IMG/VR virus record: IMGVR_UViG_3300046012_000185
Coordinates: 1-30,695 of that record
Direction: 5' to 3' (one strand)
Source: a virus
DNA: 30,695 nucleotides
Part shown: positions 1,859 to 19,742 of the stretch, piece by piece
Numbering within the stretch: position 1 is the stretch's first letter
Layout: each line of letters starts with the position of its first letter
Notes under the pieces: model-generated
Databases searched by the model: none
Seen by the model: the letters and a program-made list of their open reading frames with translations, nothing else
Told to the model about the DNA's origin: nothing
Position numbers and translations under genes: made by a program

Positions 1859-2650
1859 ATGGGCGGAGGAAATTTCGGCGCACCCCCTTCAATAGAAGCG
1901 CTACTGGCTGAGTGGTGGGGGGGACCCCCAGCCGATCCGCTCTTTACTTTCAACCCAGGGCTAGCGAGTAATCTGGCCTTCGGCGGCAACCCGTTGTACC
2001 AAGTTTCTGACTTCTTGAACACGTTCCCCAAGTTCGGCACTTACGTGCAAGCCATCGCTTCTGGAGCGGTAGTGAACGGGGGAACTGGCTACGCGGTCAA
2101 TGACGTTCTGGTACCAACACAGAGCGGAGGTAGTGGGGCTTCGCTGGTAGTTACTGCTGTAGACGGTGCGGGCGCAGTCACAGCGTTACAGATCAGTGCG
2201 GGCGGTCAAGGCTACTCTGTGGCGAACGGTCTAGCTGTGACCGGCGGAACGGGTACGGGCGCTACGATCAACATTACGGCGCTAGCTGCGCCTAACCTGT
2301 TGAAGAACCTTTCGCTCCCTGTGCTTCAGGTCTATATCACGCTGGCTAATGCTTCGCTTCAGCAAGCTCGCTGGCTAGATTATTGGTACGTTGGTATGGG
2401 CTTGTTCGTAGCTCACTTCATCTCGCTCTTCCTGCTCAGCGACGGCAACGGCGCTACTACGCCGGGTCAAGCCGCTGCCCAAGCTTTGTCGCGGGGGCTG
2501 GTAGTCAGCAAGAGCGCTGGGGATGTAAGCGTCAGCTACCAGGTAACTCCCGGCTTAGAAAGCTGGGGGGCTTGGTTGAAAACCGAATACGGTCAGCAGT
2601 TGGCTACCTTCGCCAAGGTCATCGGTATGGGGCCCTCATATGTTTATTAG
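1859..2650 (+). CDS. Head-tail connector (adaptor), DUF4054-like, with inserted beta module
   Basis: Likely the adaptor that joins the portal to the neck. Residues ~50-65 (DFLNTFPKF) and ~145-263 (helices with LQQARWLDYWYVG, AHFISLFLLS, then LSRGLVVSKSAGDVSVSYQ and YGQQLATFAK) match the style of DUF4054, a family of HK97 gp6-like connectors. Residues ~66-143 are a separate glycine-rich beta module with two GxGY motifs and a TGGTGTGA signature. The same module occurs in the sheath and the gpI-like protein of this phage. The ATG at 1859 is preferred because of its strong ribosome binding site, giving 263 residues. The C-terminal end overlaps the start of the broken endonuclease gene by 11 bases. 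Confidence 0.75.
   Translation: MGGGNFGAPPSIEALLAEWWGGPPADPLFTFNPGLASNLAFGGNPLYQVSDFLNTFPKFGTYVQAIASGAVVNGGTGYAVNDVLVPTQSGGSGASLVVTAVDGAGAVTALQISAGGQGYSVANGLAVTGGTGTGATINITALAAPNLLKNLSLPVLQVYITLANASLQQARWLDYWYVGMGLFVAHFISLFLLSDGNGATTPGQAAAQALSRGLVVSKSAGDVSVSYQVTPGLESWGAWLKTEYGQQLATFAKVIGMGPSYVY
2054..2287 (+). repeat. GxGY beta module, copy 1 (in connector)
   Basis: Encodes about 78 residues: GGTGYAVNDVL, a glycine-serine turn (SGGSGAS), VVTAVDGAGAVTALQI, GGQGYSVANGL and GGTGTGATINI. It interrupts the DUF4054 helical fold. Boundaries are judged by eye from the change in composition and from alignment with the copies at 10242 and 19161. Confidence 0.7.
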
Positions 2651-3127
2651 CCCTATTTGGGGCATTATTTACCTGCTAAGAAATACCCTTAACGGTAAAA
2701 GGTACATAGGTCAAACTACCCAACCTTTATCCGCCAGAGTAGCTAGTCACCAACGTAGTCCGCAGCCGTTAGGTCGATCTATAAGGAAGTACGGTTTAAC
2801 TTCGAGGTCAGCATAATTGACACTGCCATAACTCGGAGTAGCTTAGATAAGAAAGAAAAATTGTGGATAGAATTCTATAACTCCCGAGTACATCGGGGAG
2901 GATATAACATCTGTTCTGGCGGTCAAGGGTCATCAGGAACTAAGGTGAGTAAAAAGACCCGTTTAAAAATGAGTGCCAGCAGAATCGGGATTCAGAAATC
3001 AAAAAATCATAGAGAGAGATTATCCCTTGCCAATAAGGGCAAACATTGGCAGCTATGCGGGATACCTAAGACCCGAGCCCATCGCAATAAAATATCTGAA
3101 GCTTTACTACGTTTTCATTCAGAATGA
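2640..3127 (+). pseudogene. GIY-YIG homing endonuclease with NUMOD3-like tail, broken by a frameshift
   Basis: The ATG at 2640 opens a 58-residue frame ending at TAA 2814. It carries a clear GIY-YIG start: GIIYLL, then GKRYIGQT and Arg33 in the catalytic arginine position. The rest of the domain continues in the -1 frame from about 2798: NFEVSIIDTA, KKEKLWIEFYNS (candidate catalytic Glu) and GGYNICSGG. After that come NUMOD3-like DNA-binding repeats rich in SKKTRLKMS and HRERLSLANKG, ending at 3127. Restoring one base in the TTT run at 2795-2797 would rejoin the parts as about 162 residues. The insert is about 42% GC by my count, lower than its neighbours. It overlaps the upstream stop and shares ATGA with the next start, so it fills a gene joint without cutting a gene. 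A sequencing error at the T run is the main alternative to real decay. Confidence 0.88.
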
Positions 3128-3705
3128 AACCTACTGTATCAGTTAAAGTCAGCGGACCGGGCGGCGCTAAGGTGAAAGCGCTGCTTACGGAGTTGACAAA
3201 GACTCAAGTGCTTGTGGGCGTTCCCCAGAAGACGACCAAGCGCAATGGCGGGAAGATCACGAATGCAGAGTTGGCCTACATCCACAGCAACGGAGTTAGA
3301 AGCTTCATCATGCGCGCCTGGATGGACTTGCGTATGAAGAAGGGCACTACCTACCCGGCTGCGCTTCAGATGTACATACACTCTAAGGGCTCCCCGAACT
3401 GGAACATACCCCCGCGTCCCATTATTGAGCCGGCAATTATGGACAAGCAGAACCGCCGCTTGATTGAAGCGGAGCTGGTAGAAGCGGGCAAGGCGGCGCT
3501 GGCGGGGGACAAGCAGCTGATGATGCAGTTCTTTAAGCGGGCGGGCATGACGGCGCAGAACGTAGTAAAAGCCTGGTTTACTAACCCACGCAACGGCTGG
3601 GCTCCGAACGCGCCCAGCACTATTAAGCGTAAGGGCAGCGACAAACCCTTGATCGATAAGGGCCAGCTACGCAACGCCATTGACTACGTGATCATCACAA
3701 AATGA
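3124..3705 (+). CDS. Neck / tail-completion protein, HK97 gp10-like
   Basis: A 193-residue protein with features usual for gp10-like or virion morphogenesis proteins at the head-tail joint: an N-terminal beta region with VLVGVPQKT, a helical middle, NIPPRPIIEPAI near residue 100, AALAGDKQLMMQFFKRAGMTAQNVVKAW, and a conserved-looking end SDKPLIDKGQLRNAIDYVI. It would act in joining the finished head to the tail. Its ATG overlaps the endonuclease stop (ATGA at 3124-3127) and has no good Shine-Dalgarno of its own, so its translation may once have depended on coupling to the upstream gene. It overlaps the next gene by 4 bases. Confidence 0.7.
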   Translation: MKPTVSVKVSGPGGAKVKALLTELTKTQVLVGVPQKTTKRNGGKITNAELAYIHSNGVRSFIMRAWMDLRMKKGTTYPAALQMYIHSKGSPNWNIPPRPIIEPAIMDKQNRRLIEAELVEAGKAALAGDKQLMMQFFKRAGMTAQNVVKAWFTNPRNGWAPNAPSTIKRKGSDKPLIDKGQLRNAIDYVIITK

Positions 3706-4073
3706 TAGACGTTTCCGAACTCTTGAACGATCCGGACCTCTGTAGCGAATTTACTATTGAGCGCCCTACTGGTAAGTTCGCTATGGGCGGCTGGCAAGCC
3801 GGGGACCCCGAGATCATTCCCGCTTATGGCGCGGTACGTAACTTGAGCGGCAATGAAATCCAACAGTTGCCGGAAGCGGATCGTGTGTTAGACGTTCTTT
3901 CCGTCCGTTCGGTTACGCCCATGAATGGCAGTACGACCGGTAACGCGGACGGCAACGCGCAGACCAGCGACATTATTATATGGAATGGGTCACGTTACCG
4001 AGTGGTACGCACCCGAGATTACAGCGAGCAAGGCTACTATTACGCAGAAGCCAGCCGCATGGAAGGGAACTAA
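3702..4073 (+). CDS. Putative head-closure / neck protein, 123 aa
   Basis: Small mainly beta protein ending in DIIIWNGSRYRVVRTRDYSEQGYY, a pattern of the form 'substance, then G-x-Y-x-V' common in head-closure and head-tail joining proteins. Its middle (GAVRNLSGNEIQQLPEADRV) is also typical of short neck proteins in this position. It starts inside an ATGA overlap with the gp10-like gene and ends in TAATG shared with the next gene. The role is inferred mostly from order: connector, gp10-like, this gene, terminator. Confidence 0.6.
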   Translation: MIDVSELLNDPDLCSEFTIERPTGKFAMGGWQAGDPEIIPAYGAVRNLSGNEIQQLPEADRVLDVLSVRSVTPMNGSTTGNADGNAQTSDIIIWNGSRYRVVRTRDYSEQGYYYAEASRMEGN

Positions 4074-4279
4074 TGAGAAAACGTTTTTGGCGTTGGGTAG
4101 CATTGTACGCGGCGAAGAAAGCGGGGTTGCCTGTAGAGCGTCGTCATACTGCGGCAGTTAATTGGAATCCTCCGGTTGTTAACAAGCCGTTGGACACAGC
4201 TTACGCTCAGATGGGTCCGCCCACTCAGCGGCGACGCAGTGCTATGGATCGCTATAACTGGGAGACAGAAGAGAGCTAA
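4073..4279 (+). CDS. Small basic hypothetical protein, 68 aa
   Basis: Not recognised. The ATG at 4073 overlaps the upstream stop by one base and follows GGAAGGGA, a good ribosome binding site; a longer in-frame reading from 3980 would lie wholly inside the previous gene and lacks such a site. The protein begins with an aromatic and basic helix (MRKRFWRWVALYAAKKAG) and ends in a charged tail. It could be a small neck or assembly factor, but its sequence gives no function. Confidence 0.6.
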   Translation: MRKRFWRWVALYAAKKAGLPVERRHTAAVNWNPPVVNKPLDTAYAQMGPPTQRRRSAMDRYNWETEES

Positions 4280-4918
4280 GTGGCCGCCGCCCCTCTAGTT
4301 CCGAAGCAAATTGAGCCGCTGTTCCAGGCGCTCACCATGACTGTTCTGGGTACAGACGACCCCAGCGCGGTGCGCATCGGTTGGCAAACTCAGGGACAGC
4401 CCGCTACGTCTGTTGATGTGGATGTAGTCTACGTCCGCTGCGTGGAAGATGATGATGATTATAACCGTATACGGGACCTGAAAAATGTCACCACTTTTGA
4501 CGTAGACGGCACCGAGATTAACCAGCAGATCGTCAGATATACGCGAGTATGGAAGTGCTTCTGGGTCGCTGAAGGGCCCAATAGCTTCGACAACATGCGC
4601 CAGGTTAAGTCAGCGCTGCTTACTGACCAAGCGACACACGATACGCTAGCTCAGGCCTTGTTGTTTCTGATTACCGACATGCCAACGGCTATACGCCTTC
4701 CCGAAGTATTTCCCGGTAATCAGTGGGGAGAGCGCGTTGACTTCGAGGCCCGCTTTAACGAGCAGGTTACAGAAATTACCTATTACCAGTCGGTCAAGAG
4801 CGCGGAAGTAATCGTCCTAGATCAGGATTCTACTCTGTCTGATCCAGCGGAAGACATCGTTATTATTGACAGCGGGTATGGCTCAGGGCCGTACGGAGCG
4901 GGGGGTTATGGTGCGTAA
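4280..4918 (+). CDS. Phage neck / tail terminator protein (LIC_12616, gp12-like)
   Basis: A 212-residue protein expected to cap the head-proximal end of the tail. The pattern VRIGWQTQGQPA, then DVVYVRCVEDDDDYNRIRD, YTRVWKCFWVAEGPNSFDN and WGERVDFEARFNEQV matches the neck terminator family known as LIC_12616 or gp12-like. The start is GTG directly after the upstream TAA; no nearer ATG keeps the conserved N-terminus. The tail is glycine- and tyrosine-rich (GYGSGPYGAGGYGA). The last 11 bases overlap the start of the large fibre gene, suggesting translational coupling. Confidence 0.78.
   Translation: MAAAPLVPKQIEPLFQALTMTVLGTDDPSAVRIGWQTQGQPATSVDVDVVYVRCVEDDDDYNRIRDLKNVTTFDVDGTEINQQIVRYTRVWKCFWVAEGPNSFDNMRQVKSALLTDQATHDTLAQALLFLITDMPTAIRLPEVFPGNQWGERVDFEARFNEQVTEITYYQSVKSAEVIVLDQDSTLSDPAEDIVIIDSGYGSGPYGAGGYGA
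4895..4898 (+). promoter_or_regulatory. Ribosome binding site supporting the fibre start at 4908
   Basis: GGAG lies 9 bases before ATG 4908. It supports a start that places the signal peptide at the very N-terminus, rather than the in-frame start at 4866. Confidence 0.6.
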
Positions 4919-7900
4919 GATTCTATTGTTGATCCTGCTGATGACGGGGGTGGCGCTGGCGCAGAATCAGACGCCCAACTACCACTTCAACTTGCCGCCT
5001 CATGGTTCTTTGAACTATGACATTCCTATCAACTCCAATTTCTCTACTCTGGATAACCTGCTTAAACAGGGAATGGTCAACTCTTACACGGCTGACCCTA
5101 ACCCGTGTACTGGGCTAGTCTGGTATAACTCTACCAGCGGGCTCTATAAGCTTTGTTCCAATGGCTTTCCCAGTGTCATCAGCACATCGGGTATTAGTTT
5201 CTCGGTGTCGGGACTTTTACCGCTCTTCAGCACTTCTACCGGTTCTTCAGCCATAACTTTTACACTACTAGCCGCCCAAGCTAATACTGTGTTTGGTAAT
5301 TTCAACAGCTTTCCGAATACGCCTAGCTACAATTCGATCTCCCCTTGCGGAGACAGTTCTCACGCTCTAAGCTTTGTTGGCGGTACGGGTTTTGGGTGTC
5401 AAGCTCTTAATGCAGGAACGGTAACTGGTCTTTCTTCTGGTAATGTTGGTGGCTTGTTTAATGTCAGCATAGCGAATCCCAACACCGCGCCGTCAATAAC
5501 GTTCACTGCCCAGAACTCTCCAGCTAACAGTATTTTCGGTAACTTCACAGGTAGCAGCCTTCCTCCGACCAATAACTTGATGTCACCTTGTGGCGATTCT
5601 GCCCATGCCTTGGGCTGGGTGGCCGGTGCAGGCTTCAATTGTGTCACTGTAAGCGGCGGGACCATAACTTCTCTCAATGTAAGCAATTTGTCTCCGCTCT
5701 TCAACACCAACATAACCAACCCAAATACTACGCCCAGTGTTACTTACACTTTAAGCAACGCGGCGGCTAACACGCTCTTCGGCAACTTCACAGGTTCAAG
5801 CGCCGGACCAATCTACAACTCTATATCGCCTTGCGGAGACGGCACTCATGCGCTGGGCTGGGTCGCTGGTACAGGCTTCACCTGCCAAGCTGTAGGAGTT
5901 TTGCCGAGCGCTTCCGCGCAAGGGCAAGTGTTAGTTTCCGCTGGGGCGGGCACCACCTATGTAGCCCAGACTAAGCCAGCTATTAACCCCTTGGACTTCG
6001 GCGTAGACTGCACCGGCTTGACCGACACGTCTGCGGCGTTAAATACGCTGTTCACGGCGATTAACCAAAGGGAAGTAGACTTCCCTCAGACTTGTCAGAT
6101 GCGGGTTGACCATCAGGTGGTAATTCAGAGCCAAGCAGCTTTTGTGTTGAAGGGATTGGGCGATCGTCCCGGCGTTGGCGGTTACGGCGGGCCTTCGATC
6201 TACGGCTGTAACGGCTCAGCTGGCGCGGTACTCTACATCAACCGTTCGGGCTTCGGGCGCATTGAAGGACTGGGCATTTATCCCAAAGGTAACCCCGGCG
6301 TCTCTGGTTGCGCCGCGTCCAGTTTCACTGGCTCCGTACAAGTTGACTCAACGGGCAACCCCGGCGTCACCACACATAAGATCATTTTTGACCATGTGGC
6401 CCTGACTACCAGCCCGCAGGGGGGCGCGATTACTGGTTACTTCGGGATAAAGATTACGGACGGGGGCAAGCAGAACGGCGAGAACATTGTCCTGAGGAAT
6501 TCTTGGATTCACTGCCAGAACTCAGTGGGTAGTTTCGGCTGGGATAATGAGAACGGGACAAGCGACAAGGATGCCGTTGAAGACAGTGACATTCACGGAT
6601 GTTTTCAGGGAGCGCGACTCTTTGGTGGCAATACCACGCTGAAAGGCAACCTGTTTTCTGCTAACGGAAACTTCAGCGTGTTCGGTTCAGGCGGTGGGTC
6701 AATCTGGATTGGGTCATGTTCTTCAGGCCCGCTGAACATCGTATACAACGAAGAGACCGACGGCGCGCAGTTCATCAACACCGATAACGATGCTGGCGGC
6801 GGCGTCGGGTGTACGGGCGGAGTGAACGTCATTGGTAACGACATGGGTGTGTCCGACTATGATACAGCCAACACCTACCCGATCAATCTTGGTACCACCA
6901 CAGGTTCTTACATCGTAGAAGGTAACCAGATCAACCTTACACAGACGCCGACCACCACTGTTGTCGGGTCTAAGTCCCAAGGCACGTTCGGCCCGCAAGG
7001 AACTATCATCCTAAAAGGCAATACGTTCCAGAATAATAACGGAGTTGCCTTGGGATTCTGTTGTCAAAGTCCCGGTTGGCAACAAGGTCAGTTTGAATTA
7101 GGCGGCGCGGGTTTTCACTTTATTGTTCCAACGGTTAGCACTACTTATGATGAAGTTGATTACGGAACCGCTAAGTTCGGTTTTCCCTCGCCTTTTAAGA
7201 TGTTCCGCGCTACATCAACAGCGGGCGGGATCAATGACGATTGGACACTGGAGAACGTTACCACCAACGTCCCGTCGAATTCCACCAGCTTTATTATCGC
7301 CCATACTGCCGGTCAGACTGGAACAGCCTACGCCGCAATCGATGGCGCTCTATCAGGGCTAACTCTAGCCCCCATCACTGCACCGGGCACGCCCACGCTA
7401 CAGCAATTCGGCTCAGCGGGTACTACTTCTTACAGCTACGTGGTCTGTGCGGTTACGTCGGGGGGCCAAGTCTGTAGCGCAGTGGCTACAACCGCTCTTG
7501 GCGCGGCAACACTCAACACTACCAACTATAACGAGATACAATCCAACGGAACGGCCGGAGCGCTGAAGTATTGCTTCTACCGCACAGCCTCAGCCGGAAC
7601 TCCGAACACTACGGGCTTAATTAAGTGCATTCCAGCGGCTTCTTTCCCCTTGGCTAAGTTGGGATACACCGCCAACACCTTCGGCACCAGCGCCGGGTAC
7701 TTTGTTGATGACAAGGGCCTAGCCGGAGACGGTACCACTCCCCAAGTAGGTAACACCACAGGTCAGCTTAACTTGGCCAACCTAGGGAAAGGTAACCCTC
7801 TCACCACTGACGGGACTAGCATTAAGAACTCTCAGATATATGTGGACGCTTCTCAGTTCGTAGGCGCGAACGGCGCTGATCCTACGGACGACTGCGCCAC

Positions 7901-9932
7901 TGTGAAACAAGCCTTGCTAGCGGCTACTCTGGGTCAGCGCGTTACGGCCAGCGCTTTAACCGGAGACCGTAAGTGTAAAAGTAACCCTTACCCTTCTACG
8001 GGGCAAGATATCGTTGAATGGGGCCCATCGCACTGGTGGATGCAAGGTAACTTCTCCGTAGTAGTTCCTTCCCGTCTGTACACAATAGGCCGAGGACGAG
8101 ACGCCAACCCCCCAACAGGCTTGGGCGCAACTACCTTCACCGCGTGCACTAGTATTACCTCTAACTGCCTGTCTACTTTCACCAGTAATATTATGTGGTG
8201 CTGGGGGGCGGGTGGCGTCTGCGGTGTGGGCGGCGGGACCTCGATTGTAGACGCGCCTATTACCAATATTACTCTGGATTGCGCCTCAGCAACTAACATT
8301 ATCGGTTTACAAGATATGGTCTCTGGGGGGCGCTCGGGGGCCCACAATGTTAAGCTCGAAAACTGTGTTAACCAAAATTCTCGCGGGCTTCAGCTCGCCG
8401 GCACCAACTATCCCTCTACCACTACAGTAACCGTAACGCTGGGTTCTAATCTAGTAGCCGGTACGGGCTTTACGCCGGATATGCTGAATAACCAGATTCA
8501 GTTCTCCAGCCAAGCAGGAACAAACTATCACGTTACCGCCCGGACGCCTACGCAGTTAACGCTGGACGTCAACTACACCGGGACTACGAGCGCGGCAGCT
8601 ACGATAACTGTCTCAAATAGTTCAACCCAGAGCTCCGACTTTAGTGACCTATTCTTTAGTAGTGGCTCTGTTTGTGATCATACGGGCGTTCCGCTTCTGG
8701 TCAATACCGGCAGCGATACGAATTTTGGGCCACTTGCTATACAGCGGGTTATGGTAACAAACAGCTGTACTACCACCACTGAGCCCGACTACACCATACG
8801 CTTCAGCGGCACTAAGACCCGCTTCACCGATATTCACGTAGAGGGTTTCAACATAGCCGGTACAGTCTTCGGGTTAGACGCGCCGACGGCCGAAGTCTCG
8901 CTTGTAAACGTAGACTGCGGCGCGGTCAACACTACTACCGGGTCAACGACCAATCTTCTGCTGATCTCCAACGCCTTCACCGCCCGCGATATAAAGACTA
9001 CCAATCTGAAGTGCGTTGCGCCTAACCCAGTGAACCTGATACAGGACCAGATCAATAGCAATACCGTACCGTGGAGCAGCGAAGCCTCGATGGCGGAGTA
9101 TACCATTGGGCTGTCAAGCAACATTGTCCAAACTACCTCTGGCACTGTGACGAGCAAGCTTTACGGTATGCAGGTTTTAAGTAACTACGGCTTCAGTTCC
9201 ACAACCACTTGCTCCTCGGGAACGAACATCTTCCAGGCTGTAGCAAATACATTAAGTACTTGTATCAACGGAGTAGAAACAATCCGTTGGGGTAGCGCGG
9301 GCTCCAGGCTCTTTTCTACCTACGCGCTACAGTGGACTAATGGTACAGCAGGTGGCGGTACTGTTGATCTAACGGTACAGCGCAGCAATCCGCAGACTTT
9401 AAATATTGGGACTACCAGCGCTGATGGTAAAGGCTATATTGAAGCTTCAGCGGTTCGCGTGCTCAGCAACGCTACGTTCGGTACGGGCGGCAACGTCATT
9501 ACTACTACGGCGCTGACAGCCATTCCGGGCCTTAGCTGGACGATTCCCGCTGCCGCTCAGGCTTATGACCTGAATTGTAAACTGGCCTATACTCAGGCTA
9601 CCGCCGCAGCTGCCAACCAATTCGGCGTGCAGTTCAATACCACCGCACCCCAACATGGGTTGGGCTTCGGTCACACGCAGATTACGGTAGGTCCTCCCTC
9701 GACTTACACCGACGGCACCAGTTCTTCGCTTGCCGTTACCACTCCAGTATCGCTGGTAACGTTCACCCCCGGCGCTACGGCTACCGTGTACCAGTCGGAA
9801 TTACATGTTACGTTCTTAGCCTCTGGTTCAGGCACGGCCACTGTGAACATATTGGCGGCTACGGGAAGCATCGCCGATCTTCTCACGATTAATGCGGATA
9901 GCTCTTGCCGCATCGAAGTTACGAATAACTAA
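4908..9932 (+). CDS. Giant tail fibre / spike with signal peptide and two beta-helix regions, 1674 aa
   Basis: Probable receptor-binding or polysaccharide-degrading fibre. Residues 1-18 form a textbook Sec signal peptide (VRK, then a Leu/Ile core, ending GVALA before QNQ). Residues ~22-53 are a fibre N-terminal motif (TPNYHFNLPPHG, INSNFSTLDNLL). Residues ~94-329 are three repeats of about 80 residues, each ending near SPCGD..HALGWV.G.GF.C. Residues ~357-745 look like a pectate-lyase-type beta-helix (FGVDCTGLTDTSAALNTLF), ~820-935 resemble fibronectin III, ~975-1430 hold a second helix (ANGADPTDDCATVKQAL) and ~1510-1674 look like a jelly-roll tip. No catalytic residues can be named. The place, between neck terminator and sheath, is unusual for a fibre. 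The ORF could start at 4866, but the site at 4895 and the signal peptide favour 4908. Confidence 0.8.
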   Translation: MVRKILLLILLMTGVALAQNQTPNYHFNLPPHGSLNYDIPINSNFSTLDNLLKQGMVNSYTADPNPCTGLVWYNSTSGLYKLCSNGFPSVISTSGISFSVSGLLPLFSTSTGSSAITFTLLAAQANTVFGNFNSFPNTPSYNSISPCGDSSHALSFVGGTGFGCQALNAGTVTGLSSGNVGGLFNVSIANPNTAPSITFTAQNSPANSIFGNFTGSSLPPTNNLMSPCGDSAHALGWVAGAGFNCVTVSGGTITSLNVSNLSPLFNTNITNPNTTPSVTYTLSNAAANTLFGNFTGSSAGPIYNSISPCGDGTHALGWVAGTGFTCQAVGVLPSASAQGQVLVSAGAGTTYVAQTKPAINPLDFGVDCTGLTDTSAALNTLFTAINQREVDFPQTCQMRVDHQVVIQSQAAFVLKGLGDRPGVGGYGGPSIYGCNGSAGAVLYINRSGFGRIEGLGIYPKGNPGVSGCAASSFTGSVQVDSTGNPGVTTHKIIFDHVALTTSPQGGAITGYFGIKITDGGKQNGENIVLRNSWIHCQNSVGSFGWDNENGTSDKDAVEDSDIHGCFQGARLFGGNTTLKGNLFSANGNFSVFGSGGGSIWIGSCSSGPLNIVYNEETDGAQFINTDNDAGGGVGCTGGVNVIGNDMGVSDYDTANTYPINLGTTTGSYIVEGNQINLTQTPTTTVVGSKSQGTFGPQGTIILKGNTFQNNNGVALGFCCQSPGWQQGQFELGGAGFHFIVPTVSTTYDEVDYGTAKFGFPSPFKMFRATSTAGGINDDWTLENVTTNVPSNSTSFIIAHTAGQTGTAYAAIDGALSGLTLAPITAPGTPTLQQFGSAGTTSYSYVVCAVTSGGQVCSAVATTALGAATLNTTNYNEIQSNGTAGALKYCFYRTASAGTPNTTGLIKCIPAASFPLAKLGYTANTFGTSAGYFVDDKGLAGDGTTPQVGNTTGQLNLANLGKGNPLTTDGTSIKNSQIYVDASQFVGANGADPTDDCATVKQALLAATLGQRVTASALTGDRKCKSNPYPSTGQDIVEWGPSHWWMQGNFSVVVPSRLYTIGRGRDANPPTGLGATTFTACTSITSNCLSTFTSNIMWCWGAGGVCGVGGGTSIVDAPITNITLDCASATNIIGLQDMVSGGRSGAHNVKLENCVNQNSRGLQLAGTNYPSTTTVTVTLGSNLVAGTGFTPDMLNNQIQFSSQAGTNYHVTARTPTQLTLDVNYTGTTSAAATITVSNSSTQSSDFSDLFFSSGSVCDHTGVPLLVNTGSDTNFGPLAIQRVMVTNSCTTTTEPDYTIRFSGTKTRFTDIHVEGFNIAGTVFGLDAPTAEVSLVNVDCGAVNTTTGSTTNLLLISNAFTARDIKTTNLKCVAPNPVNLIQDQINSNTVPWSSEASMAEYTIGLSSNIVQTTSGTVTSKLYGMQVLSNYGFSSTTTCSSGTNIFQAVANTLSTCINGVETIRWGSAGSRLFSTYALQWTNGTAGGGTVDLTVQRSNPQTLNIGTTSADGKGYIEASAVRVLSNATFGTGGNVITTTALTAIPGLSWTIPAAAQAYDLNCKLAYTQATAAAANQFGVQFNTTAPQHGLGFGHTQITVGPPSTYTDGTSSSLAVTTPVSLVTFTPGATATVYQSELHVTFLASGSGTATVNILAATGSIADLLTINADSSCRIEVTNN
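5187..5894 (+). repeat. Three tandem ~80-residue coding repeats in the giant fibre
   Basis: Residues ~94-168, 169-248 and 249-329 repeat the order: LF with a Ser/Asn-rich strand, P.ITFT or PSVTYT, AN.(V/I/L)FGNF, SPCGD..HAL.(W/F)V.G.GF.C. Copies 2 and 3 are closest. Each has a conserved Cys pair (SPCGD and GFxC), which could form a disulfide outside the cytoplasm. Confidence 0.8.
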
Positions 9933-9941
9933 GGAGAATTC

Positions 9942-11378
9942 ATGGCCAGCTCCACACTGCCCCTAAGCAACATTGTTGACGTAATAGTCAGCGTAGCGCC
10001 CATCTCTCCGGCTACGCCTACCTTTAATCAGGGGCTGATCGTAGGCCCGAGCACGGTCATCCCTTCTCAGCAAGGCCAAACCAGCCCACGCTTGAGACAG
10101 TACACCTCACTGTCTCAGATGCTTCAAGACGGCTTTACGCTCACCAGTCCAGAGTATATTGCCGCTTCAATCTATTTTGGGCAAACTCCGCCCCCTCAGT
10201 TTCTTTGGGTTGGACGGCAGGACCTCACCAGCTTAGCCACCATTGCTCCGAACGGCGGTGCCCTAGGGGTTAACTATGTAGTAGGAGACACCTTCCTCAT
10301 TACTCATGCCGGAGCCAGCCTGGGCTTTGGAGTAGTGACGGCGGTAGGTGGCGGCGGCGTAGTTACCTCTATTGCTATCGCCACTATTAACGGCGTGCTT
10401 GCCGACGGTACGGGTTATGCCGTTAGCACTGCCAACGCCACCACCACCCTAACGGGCATCGGTAGTGGTTTGCAGGTGGACATCAACGCCGTCGGGGAGT
10501 CCCCGCTGGTTGCTCTACAGATTTGCCGCTCGGTTAATAATACCTGGTACAGCTGCTTTGTAACCAGCGCCGCGACGGCGGATCACCTAGCTATCGCTGC
10601 TTGGATTCAGGGAACCACCCCCGCCAGCTTCTATTTCTTCACCACGGGGGATACCGAAGTTCTGAATAACGTACCTAACAACATCTTCGCCCAGATGAAG
10701 GCCCTGTTGTATACCAGGGTTATGGGTATCTATAGCACAACCCAAAGCGGCGTATTCCCGAATAACATCTACGCGGGGGCGGCGCTCATGGGTACGGCTA
10801 TGGGCTTAAATACAGGGCTGGCGAACAGCTTCTTTGACATGATGTTCAAGACGCTGACGGGTATTGCCGTGGAGCCGCTTACGCAGACTCAGGTCAACGG
10901 CATTGCCGGCACGCCGGGGTCGGGCACGGGTAACAACGGCAATGTATATGTGAATTACGCCAGCGCTTACAGCATCACCATGTCCGGAACCGTCCCCAGC
11001 GGGCAGTTCTTTGATGAGATTCTGAATCTGGATATGTTGACTTCTGACATTCAGTTCTCCATCATCAATCTGCTTACAGGTAATCCCAGTATTCCGCAGA
11101 CTGATGCGGGTCAGACTCAGTTGCTCCACGCCGTTAACGGAGCTGCTGAACGTGCCCGTGTCAGAGGGTTCATTGCCAAGGGAACTTGGAACGGTGTCGG
11201 CATTCTTAACTTGATTGCCGGCGATGTCTTACCTAGCGGTTATCTGGCTCAGTCCCCCGCCTACAGCACACAAGCGGCTTCGGATCGTGCCTCCCGCAAA
11301 GCCATGCCAATCTATTTGGCAATTATCGAAGCCGGAGCGGTCCATTTTGTACTGATCGGCGTATACGTCCAGCGCTAA
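9942..11378 (+). CDS. Contractile tail sheath protein, DUF3383-like, with inserted beta module
   Basis: Likely the sheath subunit that contracts around the tube. The N-terminus (LPLSNIVDVIVSVAP, then GLIVGPSTVIP) and the early segment YTSLSQMLQDGF, PEYIAASIYFGQTPPPQFLWVGR match DUF3383 sheath proteins. The C-terminal half contains AAERARVRGFIAKGTWNG, GYLAQSP and a final beta segment, as expected for a sheath core. Residues ~101-185 are a glycine-rich beta module, also found in the connector and gpI-like proteins, inserted between QFLWVGRQDL and SPLVALQICRS. AAGGAG at 9931-9936 lies 5 bases before the ATG. The gene is followed by the tube gene, the usual sheath-tube order. Confidence 0.85.
   Translation: MASSTLPLSNIVDVIVSVAPISPATPTFNQGLIVGPSTVIPSQQGQTSPRLRQYTSLSQMLQDGFTLTSPEYIAASIYFGQTPPPQFLWVGRQDLTSLATIAPNGGALGVNYVVGDTFLITHAGASLGFGVVTAVGGGGVVTSIAIATINGVLADGTGYAVSTANATTTLTGIGSGLQVDINAVGESPLVALQICRSVNNTWYSCFVTSAATADHLAIAAWIQGTTPASFYFFTTGDTEVLNNVPNNIFAQMKALLYTRVMGIYSTTQSGVFPNNIYAGAALMGTAMGLNTGLANSFFDMMFKTLTGIAVEPLTQTQVNGIAGTPGSGTGNNGNVYVNYASAYSITMSGTVPSGQFFDEILNLDMLTSDIQFSIINLLTGNPSIPQTDAGQTQLLHAVNGAAERARVRGFIAKGTWNGVGILNLIAGDVLPSGYLAQSPAYSTQAASDRASRKAMPIYLAIIEAGAVHFVLIGVYVQR
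10242..10496 (+). repeat. GxGY beta module, copy 2 (in sheath)
   Basis: About 85 residues: GVNYVVGDTFLI, a Gly-rich strand pair (VVTAVGGGGVVTSIAI), DGTGYAVSTANATTTL and GIGSGLQVDI. It is the most divergent of the three copies. Edges are set by eye against copies at 2054 and 19161. Confidence 0.6.
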
Positions 11379-11389
11379 CGTTCTGGACG
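11366..11389 (+). other. Perfect 7-bp inverted repeat across the sheath stop
   Basis: CGTCCAG at 11366-11372 pairs with CTGGACG at 11383-11389 around a 10-base loop that contains the sheath stop codon. CGCTA (11373) can alternatively pair with TAGCG (11393). No T run follows, so a simple intrinsic terminator is unlikely. It may affect RNA processing or sheath/tube balance; this is inference. Confidence 0.45.
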
Positions 11390-11427
11390 CCGTAGCGAGC
11401 TAGAAACACCCTCAGGAGATGAACTAG

Positions 11428-11880
11428 ATGACGACCTACAGCTTTAAAGACACCACTGGCGCATTCGAACATCCCAATGTGGGGGAGTTTCAATTCGCTG
11501 GTCAAATTGGCATGGGAGAGTTTGTTGTCGTTATGGCCCAAGAACGCACCTCCCATGACATCGCCGCTGACGGAAACGTTATGGTCAGCTACTTGGCCGG
11601 AGACAACGGTAGCTTGGATATTCAGGTTCAACAGACCAGCGCCTTACACGCTTTCCTGTTGGCCTGGTTTAACACGGTTAAAACCGCTGCCGACAATCAG
11701 GATGTAGCAAACTGGGCAGCGGCTACCGTTACCTTACGAAGTCTTGTGGACGGCTCTACCCACGTTCTTACCGGCGTGAGCCCCAGCAAGATTCCCGACA
11801 AAACCTATGCAGCTCAGGGCGGCAAAGTAACCTGGCGCCTTATGGCTGCTGATGTACAGAGCGTAGTACTGGGGGTGTAA
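11428..11880 (+). CDS. Tail tube protein, DUF3277-like
   Basis: A 150-residue protein matching the DUF3277 tube style closely: TYSFKDTTGAFEHPNVGEF at the N-terminus, ERTSHDIAADGNVMVSYLAGDNG in the middle, then IQVQQTSALHAFLLAWFN and a C-terminal KIPDKTYAAQGGKVTWRLMAA. It would polymerise into the rigid inner tube through which DNA passes. AGGAG at 11414-11418 lies 9 bases before the ATG, and the gene follows the sheath after a 49-base spacer with an inverted repeat. The chaperone gene starts two bases after its stop. Confidence 0.85.
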   Translation: MTTYSFKDTTGAFEHPNVGEFQFAGQIGMGEFVVVMAQERTSHDIAADGNVMVSYLAGDNGSLDIQVQQTSALHAFLLAWFNTVKTAADNQDVANWAAATVTLRSLVDGSTHVLTGVSPSKIPDKTYAAQGGKVTWRLMAADVQSVVLGV

Positions 11881-11881
11881 G

Positions 11882-12373: not shown

Positions 12374-12528
12374 ATCCTTTTGTATGGCGGCTAGTGCTCC
12401 GTGGCCTCTGGTCGCATAGAGACTTGAGAAACGGAGTATATGACGTTGATGACCTGCTGGATGCTCACGAGGCTTTAGACTGGCAGGAAGCTAACGAAGC
12501 GATCATAAGGGAAAACCTTAATGGCTAA
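12292..12528 (+). CDS. Chaperone extension in the -1 frame (frameshift product C-terminus)
   Basis: The -1 frame opens after TAA 12289-12291 and runs to TAA 12526-12528, overlapping the tape measure start. It has no ATG and no ribosome binding site. Its translation contains ECVEIDPFVWRLVLRGLW, then NGVYDVDDLLDAHEALDWQ, in the style of downstream chaperone domains. If the shift occurs at 12301-12308 the joined product is 215 residues: 142 from the 0 frame and 73 from this one. This fills the 147 bases between the 0-frame stop and the tape measure, which would otherwise be empty. Expression by shifting is inferred from pattern; it has not been shown. Confidence 0.7.
   Translation, partial: PVRVFSRRRIESRLKGHGFAAAECVEIDPFVWRLVLRGLWSHRDLRNGVYDVDDLLDAHEALDWQEANEAIIRENLNG
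12301..12308 (+). other. Candidate -1 slippery site G TTT TTT C
   Basis: 0-frame codons TTT TTT (Phe141, Phe142) are preceded by G. It lies in the only part of the 0 frame where -1 is open (12292-12370). A-site re-pairing is perfect; P-site re-pairing from TTT to GTT has one mismatch, so this is not the canonical heptamer. Confidence 0.5.
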
Positions 12529-13912
12529 TGTAATGAACGAGTATTTGGTAGCTCTGGGTTGGCAAGTCAACCAGGGCGAGCTTCGGAAGTTTACCGAGGC
12601 TCTGCGCCACATGTCGGAGCAGGTTGAGCGCTATACCAATAACGAGTTCTATGGCATCGTCCCCAAGTTTGCCAAAGCTGGGGCCATGATAACTGGCGTG
12701 TTAGCCAGTATTGCAGCCGGCACGGTAGGGCTTCTAGCTCATACGGCTAAGGCAGACTTGGATTTTCAAGTGTTGGCGCGGCGCATGTTTATGACCGGCG
12801 ATGCTGCCAAGCAGATGAAGATAGCTACGGATGCGCTGGGCTACTCTCTGGAAGACATCATCTGGGGTCCTCCCGAACTGCGGCGACGTTATGCTACCCT
12901 GATCGAAGACCAGCGCAAGATGCAGTCTGGCTTGGGCCCGGACTTCGAAAAGCAGATGTTGATGATCAGAGACATCGGCTTTGAATTTACCCGGTTCGAA
13001 GTAGAGCTCCAGTACTTCGCTATGAATTTCGCTAAGTCTATGAGCAAGGCGCTGTTCGGCGATGAGAACGCCTTGTTACCTAAGCTGCGGGAATTCAATG
13101 ACTACTTCCAACAGCACATGCCGGAGATTGCCGACAAGATCACGTCCAAACTGGTGCCCGCGTTGAAGCAAGGCTGGGAAATATTGAAAGACGTGTGGGA
13201 CGTTGTGCAGAAGATATACGGCGCTTTTAAGTGGATGTACGAAACCTTCGGAGCCAAAACGCTAGGGGGCGCTGTAGTAGGCGGTTATCTAGGTGGGCCA
13301 ATGGGGGCAGTAGCCGGGGGATTCATGGGCGCGGTCGCTACGGCTACGGATGACTGGACTAAGCGAGCCCCCAATCCCATGGTAGCGGCTGGCCAGGTAA
13401 CACAGTACAAGCTTTTGGCGAAAGTGCTGGCGAGAAAGTACGGAGTTGACCCCTCGGTATTCGCTTCGCTTATTCAGCAGGAGTCAGGCTGGAACCCCAA
13501 CGCTACTAATAAAGATACTGGAGCGTTTGGCTTGGGTCAGTTTATGCCCGGTAACATGCATATGTACGGAATGAACGCTGGCATACCTGAGCAGAACTTG
13601 GAGATGTCCGCTCACTACCTGGGCGACTTGCTGAAGAAGTATCATGGCGATTGGAACCAGGTGCTGAAAGAGTACGGCGGTTTTTCTACCAAAGACCCTA
13701 GCGGCTACATTAACTCGATCATGGGCGGAGCCAAGCTTCATCCCTCCTCCTTCTCTACAGGCGGGGGCGGCGGGACTACGGTGAATGTAAACGTGGCCAA
13801 CTCCAACGCTAGTGCGCAGGAGATCGCTTCCACCGTCGAACGTACTCTAGATGCGCGGGACAAGCGGGTTAACCAGCGGCTAGCGGTACAGCTGAGCGGA
13901 GCTTACGCATAA
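12521..13912 (+). CDS. Tape measure protein with lytic transglycosylase domain, 463 aa
   Basis: Sets tail length and probably helps local cell wall opening. The N-terminus (residues 1-50) and long amphipathic helices to ~245 fit a tape measure; residues ~247-275 form a Gly/Ala hydrophobic stretch (GGAVVGGYLGGPMGAVAGGF) that may insert into membrane. Residues ~300-405 are an SLT/lysozyme-like domain: LIQQESGWNP with probable catalytic Glu321, then GAFGLGQFMP and YGGF. The C-terminal ~45 residues are a glycine stretch and a beta/helix tail. At 463 residues it is short, which predicts a tail of roughly 70 nm at the usual ratio of about 0.15 nm per residue. AAGGG lies 9 bases before the ATG. Confidence 0.82.
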   Translation: MANVMNEYLVALGWQVNQGELRKFTEALRHMSEQVERYTNNEFYGIVPKFAKAGAMITGVLASIAAGTVGLLAHTAKADLDFQVLARRMFMTGDAAKQMKIATDALGYSLEDIIWGPPELRRRYATLIEDQRKMQSGLGPDFEKQMLMIRDIGFEFTRFEVELQYFAMNFAKSMSKALFGDENALLPKLREFNDYFQQHMPEIADKITSKLVPALKQGWEILKDVWDVVQKIYGAFKWMYETFGAKTLGGAVVGGYLGGPMGAVAGGFMGAVATATDDWTKRAPNPMVAAGQVTQYKLLAKVLARKYGVDPSVFASLIQQESGWNPNATNKDTGAFGLGQFMPGNMHMYGMNAGIPEQNLEMSAHYLGDLLKKYHGDWNQVLKEYGGFSTKDPSGYINSIMGGAKLHPSSFSTGGGGGTTVNVNVANSNASAQEIASTVERTLDARDKRVNQRLAVQLSGAYA

Positions 13913-14754: not shown

Positions 14755-14759
14755 AAAAT

Positions 14760-15107
14760 ATGAGCGCCCAGATCATACCGCTTACTCCGGACCCGAACCA
14801 AGTGTTCGAAGTGCCGTTGAACATTAACAATACGGTCAAGAGCCTTTACCTTACTCTGCGCTACAACGAACTGGCGCAGTACTGGTTTATGACGGTAAAG
14901 AACTCCCAAGGCGTCATCATCTTAGATTCCATACCGTTAGTCACAGGAAACGTTCCCAGTGGCAATATCCTGCGGCAGTTCGCTTATTTGGGTATAGGCT
15001 CGGCTTACGTGTTGAACGCCAGCGAAGTGGCAACCCCGGACTTCCCTAACAACAAGAATCTCGGAACGGATTTCGTTCTACTGTGGGATGATACCCCAGC
15101 AGCATGA
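14760..15107 (+). CDS. Baseplate plug protein (Pam3 gp18-like)
   Basis: A 115-residue beta-rich protein whose start MSAQIIPLTPDPNQVFEVPL, middle YWFMTVKN and end LGTDFVLLWDD resemble the plug domain described from the cyanophage Pam3 baseplate (Pam3_gp18). Such proteins sit at the tip of the tube before DNA release. It lies between Dit-like and hub genes, which is the order expected for this baseplate type. Its stop overlaps the hub start (ATGA). Confidence 0.75.
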   Translation: MSAQIIPLTPDPNQVFEVPLNINNTVKSLYLTLRYNELAQYWFMTVKNSQGVIILDSIPLVTGNVPSGNILRQFAYLGIGSAYVLNASEVATPDFPNNKNLGTDFVLLWDDTPAA

Positions 15108-16171: not shown

Positions 16172-16899
16172 GTAATGCTTCCAGCTGGCTTAGTGTACCG
16201 CAACGTTTGGGACTACCCGAGACCCCCTTTAAAGAGGCTCTGTGGCAGCTGATGTGCCGCCTCCGCGTAGCTGCTCCCGGGATCATACAGAGCTTCGATT
16301 CGGTGAAGCAGACGGTAACAGTACGCCTCGCGATCTTGGAGAAAATGAAGGTCAACACTCCGGACGGTCAAGGCGGCGTTGCCCCCATAGCTCAGGATAC
16401 GCAAATTCCTGACTTAGAGAACGTACCTATCGTACTGCCACGCGCCGGGGGCTATGAGCTGACCTTTCCTGTTCATGCTGGCGACGAGTGCCTGGTAGTA
16501 TTCGGGGACAATTGCTACAACTCCTGGTGGGCCAGCGGCGGCGTACAAGGGCAAGAAGAGCGCCGCCGCCACAGCTTGTCGGACGCCATCGCTGTTCTGG
16601 GCGTCTGGTCTCAGCCCCGTAAGATAGGCAACTACGCCACGGATTCGGTGCAGTTGCGTTCTGATGACGGGACCCGAGTAGTAAAAATTGACGGAACACA
16701 AGTTAGTTTAATTGTCAGCCCCCACAGCATTGTGATTGATAGCTCTGGCATCACTATTAACGGGCCGGTAACAATCAACGGAACTTTAAGTAGCAACCAA
16801 TTTACCACTACCGGCGCTACCATCGCGGGCCGAGCATTCCTGGCACATGAGCATACGGGCGTTACCACAGGCGGCGGCGTCTCAGGAGGAGTTGTATGA
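16168..16899 (+). CDS. Baseplate spike protein, Gp138/gpV-like
   Basis: Membrane-piercing central spike. Residues ~35-150 have the Gp138 N-terminal OB-like pattern: PGIIQSFDSVKQTVTV, VPIVLPRAGGYELTFPVHAGDECLVVF, then NSWWASGG and LSDAIAVLGVWSQP. The rest is a beta-helix (repeats around GITINGPVTINGT) ending in a tip with HEH at residues 227-229 and GGGVSGGVV. An HxH pair near the tip recalls the metal-binding apex of the gpV/gp5.7 class, but metal binding here is inferred. It shares ATGA overlaps with the hub and wedge genes. Confidence 0.82.
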   Translation: MSNASSWLSVPQRLGLPETPFKEALWQLMCRLRVAAPGIIQSFDSVKQTVTVRLAILEKMKVNTPDGQGGVAPIAQDTQIPDLENVPIVLPRAGGYELTFPVHAGDECLVVFGDNCYNSWWASGGVQGQEERRRHSLSDAIAVLGVWSQPRKIGNYATDSVQLRSDDGTRVVKIDGTQVSLIVSPHSIVIDSSGITINGPVTINGTLSSNQFTTTGATIAGRAFLAHEHTGVTTGGGVSGGVV

Positions 16900-17288
16900 G
16901 TACTCCTGTCATAGTCTATCGCCAGCTGGTCAGCGGAGAACCAGCTTGGGGTCAGGGACAAGACAACTTGATCAGCAATACCGACGCCGTAGCCCAGCTT
17001 ATTCAGACCCGTTTACTGCTCTTCGAGAACGAGTGGTGGGCTAACCTTTCTGATGGGCTGCCGTTGTGGCAGTCTATCTTGGGGCAGACCGCGAACGTAA
17101 ACGCCATAACCTTGCTCATTAACCAGCGCATTCTTTCTACCCCTTTTGTGAACGGGATAGAAAGTCTGACAGTTGGCTACGATAGCGCTAACCGTGCTTT
17201 CTCCTACACCGCTGCGGTTACTACTCAATTCGGAGTAGTCACTGTAACGAACATACCCACCGTTCCTTCTCAAGAGGTGCCCTTGTGA
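16896..17288 (+). CDS. Baseplate wedge protein, gp25/gpW-like
   Basis: A 130-residue protein with WWANLSDGLPLWQSILGQT, LINQRILSTPFVNGIESL and a closing strand AFSYTAAVTTQFGVV. This is the pattern of gp25-like wedge proteins, which start sheath assembly on the baseplate. It sits between the spike and the gpJ-like gene, the usual wedge order, and overlaps both by 4 bases (ATGA and GTGA). Confidence 0.78.
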   Translation: MSTPVIVYRQLVSGEPAWGQGQDNLISNTDAVAQLIQTRLLLFENEWWANLSDGLPLWQSILGQTANVNAITLLINQRILSTPFVNGIESLTVGYDSANRAFSYTAAVTTQFGVVTVTNIPTVPSQEVPL

Positions 17289-18478
17289 GCTACGTAGCGC
17301 CTACCATTAGCGAGACTGGGCTAACGGTTCCCAGCTATAACGACATAGTCAATTTCTATATCGGCCAGCTTCAGTCCATCTATGGAGCTGGCGTAGTTAC
17401 CGATAACAGTTCTGCGGATATTCAGCTGCTTTCGATCCTAGCGTTGGCCGCTTCTGACGTAATGGCAGCTCTAGTTTTAGAGTACAGCAACCGCGCCCCC
17501 AACTTTTCTATCGGCGCGGCGCTGGACAGTTTGGTGACATTGAACGGGTTGGCTCGCAAAGTGGCCACAGCGTCTACCGTATCCGTAACTTTAACCGGCG
17601 ATGTTGGCGCGGTGATTAACAACGGCATTGTTGCTGATACCGTACAGGGGCTGCAATGGCTCTTGCCCGCTACTGTGACTATCGGCGGCGGGGGAACGGT
17701 TACCGTTACCGCCGTTTGCGCTACGCTGGGCGCGGTGAACATCGGTGTAGGAACTGTTACTATAAAGGTCACGCCTACTGCCGGCTGGCTTTCTGTGACT
17801 AACCCGACGGCCAGCGTACCTGGCCAGCCGGTTGAAAGCGATAGTCAGCTGCGCACCCGTCAGGCTATCAGCGTAGCGCTGCCCAGTCAGACCATCCTTT
17901 CTGGCACCCTAGCGGCGATTGCAGCTGTACCAAACGTTACGCGCTATCAGATTGACGAGAACACTGGCTCGGTTACTAACGGCAACGGCACGCCCGGTCA
18001 CAGCATCCAAGCGGTAGTCGAGAACGGGGCCAACGCGGATATCGCCGAAGCTATCTTTAACAATCGCGGGCTGGGGTGTGGGACGTCCGGCACGGTTACC
18101 ATAGCCGTAACAGACCCCAATACTGGTTTGACGATGAACATTAACTTCAACCGTCCAACCAACGTAAACATCTATGTGATCGTGAATGCCCATAACCAAG
18201 CGGGCGGTTCGCTCACCTCCGCTCAGATTGCCGCTATTCAAAACGGCATAGTAGCCTACTTGAACAGCCTCCAGATGGGCCAGACTATCAGCTTCGGAGA
18301 ACTGGTGCAAGCGGCGGCGCTGGCTGTTAATGCTAACCAGAACAATCCGACGGTATCGATACGTAGCCCGTTCTTATTCGGGACTGCGCCGGGACCGGGC
18401 AGCAGCGCTGATGTGGTTCTGGCTTTCGGTAGTGTCGCTGTAGGGCTTACAGCCAATGTGACGGTGAACAGTGTCTAG
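17285..18478 (+). CDS. Baseplate wedge protein, gpJ-like
   Basis: A 397-residue wedge subunit of the gpJ/gp6 class. Signs are SYVAPTISETGLTVPSYNDIVNFYIGQL at the start, LEYSNRAPNFSIGAALDSLVTLNGL, the internal SVPGQPVESDSQLRTRQAISV, and a C-terminal block ending in SIRSPFLFGTAPGPG. The start is GTG inside a GTGA overlap with the gp25-like gene. The stop overlaps the GTG of the gpI-like gene by 8 bases. Confidence 0.82.
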   Translation: MSYVAPTISETGLTVPSYNDIVNFYIGQLQSIYGAGVVTDNSSADIQLLSILALAASDVMAALVLEYSNRAPNFSIGAALDSLVTLNGLARKVATASTVSVTLTGDVGAVINNGIVADTVQGLQWLLPATVTIGGGGTVTVTAVCATLGAVNIGVGTVTIKVTPTAGWLSVTNPTASVPGQPVESDSQLRTRQAISVALPSQTILSGTLAAIAAVPNVTRYQIDENTGSVTNGNGTPGHSIQAVVENGANADIAEAIFNNRGLGCGTSGTVTIAVTDPNTGLTMNINFNRPTNVNIYVIVNAHNQAGGSLTSAQIAAIQNGIVAYLNSLQMGQTISFGELVQAAALAVNANQNNPTVSIRSPFLFGTAPGPGSSADVVLAFGSVAVGLTANVTVNSV

Positions 18479-19742
18479 CCTACCTCTATTTCTTCCTACT
18501 CCGCTGGCAGTAGTCAACCCCGACTTTGAAGCTGACGTAACGCTTCCGCCGTCGGGTTGGACGGTTAACGACCCGGTCGTAACGCTGGCCTATGATAAGG
18601 TAATCCCCTACCAGGGGTTACAGTCCTTAATAGTTGAAGCGACGGCAGCGGGCCAAGGCGTTTTGTCCTCAGCGTTTCGTGTAAAGCCCAACCAGTACCT
18701 TACCATGAGCGTAGCGGCAGCTACAATCTCCGGAGACGCGGTGCGCGTCGGGCTGTACTTCTACGATTACCTAGGAAACTTTCTAGGATCGCTTGCTACC
18801 ACGGAAGCGTCTCTGGCTTTTGACATACTTACGGTAAAAGGCTACGCGCCGCCGTACTCCGCCAGCGTGCAAATTTTCCTGGGGTTGGACGATGTGTCGC
18901 TCGGAGGCCAAGCAGAGTTTGATGCGGTGACGCTGGCCTCTTGTCAAGCTTCCGCGTATTACATTAGCCTGTTCTCCAGCCAGTATCAAGGTTCCCCCAA
19001 GTTTCTTTCCTTTGCCCAGGCCCTACTAACGCCTTTTGTAGACGCGGGTATTTGCGCCGGAAGCATGTACCAGGCTTTTGATATTGAATTCGCCGTAGGG
19101 TCCCAGCTCGATATCTTAGGGCAAGTACTCGGGATTTCCCGGACGCTGCCGTTCACGCCTACTGCTGGCCAGATTTTCCTGGTTACAGCAGAAAGCGCCA
19201 CGGGCGCGGGCTACGTGGTTGGGGATACGCTTGCTGTGGTACAGGGCGGCGGTAGTGGCGGGCAGATTAAAGTGCTTTCCGTTACCAGCGGCAGACCTAC
19301 GAACTACCAGATTGTAGCTCAGGGAACGGGTTACGCCACAGCAACGGGCTTAACTACTACGGGGGGTACGGGTACGGGGGCCAAGGTAGACATCGTTGTT
19401 CAGACTTTTGACCCTGTGCTCACTGACGATGTTTACCGCATACTGCTGAAAGCCAAGGTAGCGTTCAACCAATGGAACGGACAAATTGATACGCTCTATG
19501 CTATCTGGCAAGAGCTGTTTCCGGGCGGATTGATTGATGTTATAGACAACCAAAACATGACGGCTACGATCATTCTGGCGGGAACCTTCAACGCCATTAT
19601 TATAGACCTCATTAACCACGGCTACATCATCCCCCGCCCGCAAGCGGTGCAATACACCATTGCCTTCCCGGTCCTGCCCGTCTTCGGGTTCGACCAGAAC
19701 AATTCTTTCGTCGCCGGATTCGACTCCGGTCATTGGGTATAA
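18471..19742 (+). CDS. Baseplate protein DUF2612 (gpI-like) with N-terminal CBM-like domain and beta module
   Basis: Three parts can be seen in 423 residues. Residues ~14-157 look like a carbohydrate-binding-type jelly roll (VVNPDFEADVTLPPSGW, YQGLQSLIVEA, FDAVTL). From ~160 the DUF2612 core starts (YYISLFSSQYQGSPKFLSF, AFDIEFAVGSQLDILGQVLG). It is interrupted at ~231-313 by the GxGY beta module seen in the connector and sheath, and resumes at DPVLTDDVYRILLKAKVAFNQW, ending DNQNMTA, FGFD and GHW. It would join the wedge to the fibres. The GTG start overlaps the gpJ-like gene. The N-terminal domain is not a usual part of this family. Confidence 0.8.
   Translation: MSSLPLFLPTPLAVVNPDFEADVTLPPSGWTVNDPVVTLAYDKVIPYQGLQSLIVEATAAGQGVLSSAFRVKPNQYLTMSVAAATISGDAVRVGLYFYDYLGNFLGSLATTEASLAFDILTVKGYAPPYSASVQIFLGLDDVSLGGQAEFDAVTLASCQASAYYISLFSSQYQGSPKFLSFAQALLTPFVDAGICAGSMYQAFDIEFAVGSQLDILGQVLGISRTLPFTPTAGQIFLVTAESATGAGYVVGDTLAVVQGGGSGGQIKVLSVTSGRPTNYQIVAQGTGYATATGLTTTGGTGTGAKVDIVVQTFDPVLTDDVYRILLKAKVAFNQWNGQIDTLYAIWQELFPGGLIDVIDNQNMTATIILAGTFNAIIIDLINHGYIIPRPQAVQYTIAFPVLPVFGFDQNNSFVAGFDSGHWV
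19161..19409 (+). repeat. GxGY beta module, copy 3 (in gpI-like protein)
   Basis: About 83 residues: GAGYVVGDTLAVVQGGGSGGQIKVLSV, YQIVAQGTGYATATGL, TGGTGTGAKVDIVV. It cuts the DUF2612 core between SRTLPFTPT and DPVLTDD. The DNA for the end (ACGGGTACGGG) matches copy 1 closely. Confidence 0.72.

Follow-up and report, generated by a model that had tools for sequence, protein, structure and literature searches.

The head-to-tail connector, the tail sheath and a baseplate wedge protein of this phage each carry a copy of one homologous beta-barrel module built of two similar halves. The module folds like domain I of gp18, the T4 sheath protein, and the positions that hold it in the window (the whole stretch of 30,695 bases of a virus record analyzed here, with a contractile-tail gene block) have differing contents in related phages. 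The favored explanation, to which we give slightly better than even chances, is that the three modules are gp18-domain-I-fold barrels in exchangeable slots that act as multivalent, low-affinity binders. Phages are already known to have promiscuous Ig-like domains, additional domains on the sheath (PMC9230969) and shuffled domains in neck proteins (PMC10684548), and the new part is the link to gp18 domain I together with slot swapping in several proteins. In the open-access papers searched, no statement was found that places gp18 domain I in a module family also present on the connector, terminator and baseplate proteins.

Three copies of one module

A module profile built from ten copies and searched against all open reading frames of the window matches the three carrier proteins and no other, at the coordinates given in the original prediction of a similar glycine-rich module of about 80 residues in each of them (Table 1). 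All three carriers score over the Pfam cut-offs of their families. The connector frame is open from position 1820 (1820-2650), with the ATG at 1859 as the probable start, and with its module removed the protein matches E217 gp27 (8fvh) at an E-value of 5e-5. The connector copy is flanked by helix 1 (ending in FLNTFPKF) and helix 2 (starting with LPVLQVY), and the copy in the DUF2612 wedge protein by GISRTLPF and PVLTDDVYR. The predicted GGTGTGA motif occurs in these two copies only, and the sheath copy has GIGSGLQ instead.

Table 1. Carrier proteins, module copies and slots in the window
Feature	Position	Strand	Basis
Head-to-tail connector (adaptor), DUF4054	1859..2650	+	Pfam DUF4054 55.4 bits (cut-off 23.9); phrog_302
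Module copy 1, in connector	2051..2287	+	Profile match residues 78-156, E 3e-25
Tail terminator slot, empty in window	4502..4526 (approximate; gene 4280-4918)	+	Window gene is Phage_tail_terminator_9
Tail sheath, DUF3383	9942..11378	+	Pfam DUF3383 182.8 bits (cut-off 34.9); phrog_205 E 1.5e-85
Module copy 2, outer-domain slot of sheath	10242..10496	+	Profile match residues 101-185, E 9e-21
Baseplate J slot, empty in window	18390..18397 (approximate; gene 17285-18478)	+	Alignment with module-bearing relatives
Baseplate wedge protein, DUF2612 (XM1 gp17 / T4 gp7-like)	18471..19742	+	Pfam DUF2612 96 bits (cut-off 23.5); phrog_587; XM1 gp17 7kh1
Extra N-terminal domain of DUF2612 protein	18504..18944	+	phrog_14138 (minor tail protein), phrog_16363
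Module copy 3, in DUF2612 protein	19179..19406	+	Profile match residues 237-312, E 4e-28

Pairwise scores between the three modules correspond to z = 13.8, 6.9 and 8.4, and none of 2000 composition-preserving shuffles scores as high. BLASTP between the full carrier proteins, with composition correction off, returns E-values of 2e-16, 5e-10 and 2e-9 in alignments that chiefly cover the module segments, and the module profile finds no match among reversed proteins and none better than E 0.015 among shuffled ones. The connector copy consists of two similar halves of about 35 residues (z 5.8), a repeat that is weaker in the wedge copy (z 3.7). The positions kept across 29 module copies are mostly Gly, Tyr and Asp and may be structural. 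Chance convergence of glycine-rich, low-complexity sequence would be in keeping with the Gly/Ala/Thr-rich composition of the copies and with the poorly supported module tree, but the shuffles, the reversed decoys, the confident AlphaFold2 fold and the whole-domain match to gp18 described below all oppose it, and it was rejected as having virtually no chance of being right.

Spread by recombination had been proposed as one origin of the copies, and recent spread is not supported by these comparisons. The presence of three copies within one genome is what recent copying of one module into three genes would leave behind, but copies from the same genome share a mean identity of 46.5%, as against 45.0% for copies that differ in both genome and carrier and 51.4% for the same carrier across genomes, a pattern that disfavors recent copying. 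There is also almost no similarity among the copies at the DNA level (the best alignment is 51 bp at 71%), and such a history is very improbable. The identities suggest that sheath copies were mostly inherited together with the sheath. As the module tree is poorly resolved, with one starred branch of 29, it was used only alongside the identity comparisons. The connector tree requires at least three state changes but is compatible with a single origin in the AU test (p 0.54, 0.59), so that repeated gain in connectors is not proven and exchange is described here as differing contents at one point in relatives and not as counted events.

Fold of the module and its relation to gp18 domain I

The fold evidence comes from two AlphaFold2 models, one of the connector module run with 28 relatives and one of the full sheath. 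The connector module is modeled as a six-strand barrel (pLDDT 94.6), and the full sheath model (mean pLDDT 84.8) reproduces the order of its strands. The best matches of the sheath model are solved sheaths, including that of Vibrio phage XM1 (Z 31.5). In a Foldseek search of 350,542 PDB chains the first seven ranks are all T4 gp18, with modest E-values of 0.8-2.2 and a probability of up to 0.91. Structural alignment with VIA places 75 of the 79 module residues on residues 99-188 of T4 gp18 (3fo8) at Z 7.1 and 2.9 A. A Z-score below 8 would be weak alone, and this one counts because the match is isolated, extends over the entire module and coincides at its ends with the published boundaries of domain I. 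The next structural match is a KP1-type sheath (Z 5.5), and unrelated chains begin at Z 4.0. In T4, domain I comprises residues 98-188 and is a six-stranded barrel that projects outwards without inter-subunit contacts (PMC3004832).

Profile-profile comparison with gp18 domain I gives a score of 42.7 over 45 columns at a probability of 94%, in the first half of the module only. The maximum for 100 column-shuffled decoys is 14.0, and the two controls, an unrelated module and an alternative sheath domain, each stay under 1%. The module profile also matches gp18 of Aeromonas phage Aeh1 at 2e-5. Against PF22639 (Gp18_dom_I, cut-off 27) the sheath copy scores 15.9 bits and the connector and DUF2612 copies give no match, and the module model has no helix of four or more residues, whereas T4 domain I is a barrel with one alpha-helix. 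With a moderate overall match (TM 0.65, 20% identity), the module is thus a fold relative of gp18 domain I and not a member of PF22639. The two share the six-strand barrel (PDB 3fo8/3foa) and a G-x-x-Y-x-V-x-D motif, and in both sheaths the insertion falls in the N-terminal part of the chain. Unlike domain I, the module has two similar half repeats and GGTGTGA, and it is found in non-sheath proteins too.

The module also recalls the promiscuous Ig-like domains, small beta domains reused on many unrelated virion proteins and proposed to give weak carbohydrate adhesion (Fraser 2006 via PMC10684548; discussed in PMC9230969). It differs from phage Ig-like domains in having gp18 domain I as its best fold match and in being inserted in internal loops. 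None of the ten module copies has a Pfam Ig match and the fold-match lists contain no Ig entry, so far as these searches reach, and the module could still be Ig-like. The match to gp18 also assigns a fold and a solved relative to a glycine-rich segment, so far without a name, that is met repeatedly among phage structural proteins.

Insertion points and their contents in relatives

The module had been predicted to interrupt a known fold at a single point in each carrier. This stands for the connector and the wedge protein, in which the copies are, as judged from family alignments, lineage-specific insertions at fixed points and not native to the families. The DUF4054 connectors of named phages such as Magia, IFTN9 and BUCTT20 are 127-128 residues long, of which seven lie at the insertion point, as against 93 in the window connector. 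The DUF2612 core aligns to residues 8-70 and 115-215 of XM1 gp17, and the module therefore replaces the variable segment between them, of which residues 80-106 lack resolved structure and fall in tail-spike density (PMC10457771). For the sheath the claim stands in part only. Nothing fills the corresponding slot in Mulock, an Agathobaculum phage or Vibrio phage 138. An unrelated domain fills it in Magia, IFTN9 and PSTCR3, and the XM1 sheath has an insert of its own, InD, whose fold is FliD D3-like (PMC10457771). The sheath position is therefore an already known variable slot. The module fills this existing outer-domain slot in the manner of T4 gp18 domain I and XM1 InD. The XM1 sheath, gp6, is about as long as the one here and likewise has an outer domain set into its N-terminal domain, and the fold reported for InD differs from that of the module (PMC10457771). 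The module is absent from most members of each of the three carrier families, and with the short, empty or otherwise filled slots this bears out the view that the segments are not native parts of the families.

The survey covered 34 relatives found by their sheath, 80 found by their wedge protein and 80 found by their connector. In the connector, relatives have nothing in the slot, between one and three GxGY modules, or a GLxVGQ module unrelated to GxGY. The connector scan counted 40 GLxVGQ, 13 GxGY and 4 empty slots, figures that are biased to insert-bearing genes because the scan used a query with inserts and N-terminal patterns. Two or three tandem module copies stand in one connector slot in L141, L142, L144, L145, L153 and L138. 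The second module, of about 75 residues, occupies the same slot in L004, L006, L024, L028, L029, L030, L033, L037, L042 and L046, also occurs in the gene before the sheath and in other head and neck genes of the same phages, and stands beside GxGY in some sheaths; GLxVGQ and GxGY show no profile similarity to each other. The sheath slot is empty, holds another domain or holds GxGY. In the L006 sheath (10001-11653), a further insert upstream of GxGY matches the pectin-lyase phrog_32881, so that this sheath contains a stretch of tailspike type.

The wedge slot is mostly short among relatives. It holds GxGY in the window, in L022 (the same contig as L065), in L054 and in L056, and a second beta-rich insert in L032/L069, L057, L062 and L063. 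In L068 (2983-3951) it contains a CBM_4_9 domain (26.8 bits against the Pfam cut-off of 25.9), and in L096 (3085-4512) a 300-residue repeat that looks propeller-like by eye. The extra N-terminal domain of the window wedge protein has a sequence pattern suggestive of a jelly-roll or carbohydrate-binding-like fold; it has no match in a Pfam search, CBM_4_9 included, and the equivalent region of L054 scores 17.5 bits for CBM_4_9, under the cut-off of 25.9.

Two further slots are empty in the window and occupied in relatives. The terminator of L140 (L140_4731_5606) carries the module at residues 95-168, and the baseplate J proteins of L127, L090, L084, L119 and L093 carry it as well, so that at least five carrier proteins hold the module in this lineage. 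The module also matches several structural PHROGs, and a fold search of predicted viral proteins picks it up in proteins of the tip attachment J, baseplate wedge and fibre types. Taken together with the carriers in relatives, these matches indicate that the module is widespread and unnamed and not peculiar to this phage. A tblastn search of phage records with single modules found nothing, in contrast to the profile and fold searches, probably because of low-complexity masking and short queries. The alignment of the modules offered no conserved stretch with which to scan viral sequences. A sheath-alignment scan of genome contigs returned no relatives, and neither did a single-query search of viral contigs for connectors.

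These defined insertion points in tail proteins tolerate whole foreign domains. Domains are likewise exchanged in neck and receptor-binding proteins in the phage domain shuffling described in PMC10684548; the text of that paper makes no mention of the sheath, and no case was found there of a single module that one lineage carries on its connector, terminator, sheath and wedge. In environmental phages the domain I fold is reused on connector, terminator, sheath, baseplate J and wedge, and comparison among these carriers offers a way to test what it does. As a tentative generalization, which we hold to be somewhat less probable than its opposite, contractile phages may share standard surface slots on these five consecutive tail proteins that exchange a pool of unrelated binding modules, with T4 domain I as one member. 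If so, the whole tail exterior, and not the fibre tips alone, would be under selection as an evolvable adhesive surface.

Possible roles on the tail surface

Each module would occupy a permissive slot of an oligomer, namely the 12-fold neck connector, the stacked 6-fold sheath and the 6-fold baseplate wedge. The XM1 tail has 18 sheath rings, which amount to 108 copies of the sheath protein, along with 12 copies of the connector, 6 of the wedge and a tape measure of 479 amino acids (PMC10457771). The putative tape measure of the window (12521-13912, + strand) has only 463 residues and includes an SLT transglycosylase domain. From the similar tape measure lengths about 100 sheath copies are expected, and the hundreds originally envisaged on the sheath are too high a figure. 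The outside of the tail would then display about 100 copies on the sheath, 12 at the neck and 6 on the wedge.

As a fold that points outwards on the T4 tail is present here on three proteins, the module looks like a reusable surface attachment that phages can add to their tails or drop from them. Outward exposure is established for T4 domain I and is presumed for the copies in this phage. Through weak multivalent binding the modules could keep the particle close to the cell envelope or to matrix glycans. The CBM_4_9 carbohydrate-binding domain that a relative has at the same DUF2612 point is indirect support for binding of a host surface or glycan. We assign about one half of the weight to such adhesion and about one quarter to docking of the phage's own appendages, with a filler role third. 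Against adhesion, the studied role of T4 domain I is the binding of retracted long tail fibres and the baseplate, not of the host. The conserved Gly, Tyr and Asp positions of the module, which may be structural, point to no particular binding residue or ligand. The gp18 fold on which the adhesion reading is based is itself a moderate match, with profile similarity in the first half only and no helix.

The same T4 data favor the alternative that appendages of the phage itself, such as fibres, spikes or collar proteins, dock onto the module. The gp18 substitutions G106S, S175F and A178V in domain I inhibit fibre retraction (PMC3004832). In the T4 record the glycine of GxxY is G106. The loop preceding the last strand contains S175 and A178, and GGTGTGA of the module would correspond to this loop by its order, so that both module motifs may mark loops that T4 uses in docking. 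In XM1, the gp17 segment replaced here falls in tail-spike density, and gp1 touches the collar spike. The slots nevertheless accept unrelated modules, CBM_4_9 or nothing, and a specific partner would limit such exchange, which leaves docking a possible but distinctly less probable role than weak adhesion.

A neutral or stabilizing filler is an unlikely third explanation, in which surface loops accommodate a soluble barrel that is retained because it shields or stiffens the tail. Additional sheath domains of T4 are held to be non-essential for sheath formation, with a proposed role in stability (PMC9230969), and the slots are empty in many relatives. A filler would not readily account for the number of different carriers, the tandem copies in some connectors or the Gly, Tyr and Asp positions kept across copies.

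Several other genes of the window stand apart from the module. Between the terminator and the sheath, a 1688-residue open reading frame (4866-9932, + strand) has a signal-peptide-like stretch, MVRKILLLILLMTGVALAQ, near its start and no PHROG match. Signal-peptide-like starts, unusual among virion proteins, also occur in the frames at 20485-23256 and 26528-27151. A short frame between the connector and the next neck gene (2861-3127, + strand) has a NUMOD3 motif just above the cut-off and is probably a homing endonuclease remnant. The window further encodes a cysteine protease of the papain family (Peptidase_C1; 27148-27939, + strand), here in a phage genome, and a ThyX-type thymidylate synthase (Thy1; 28750-29502, - strand).
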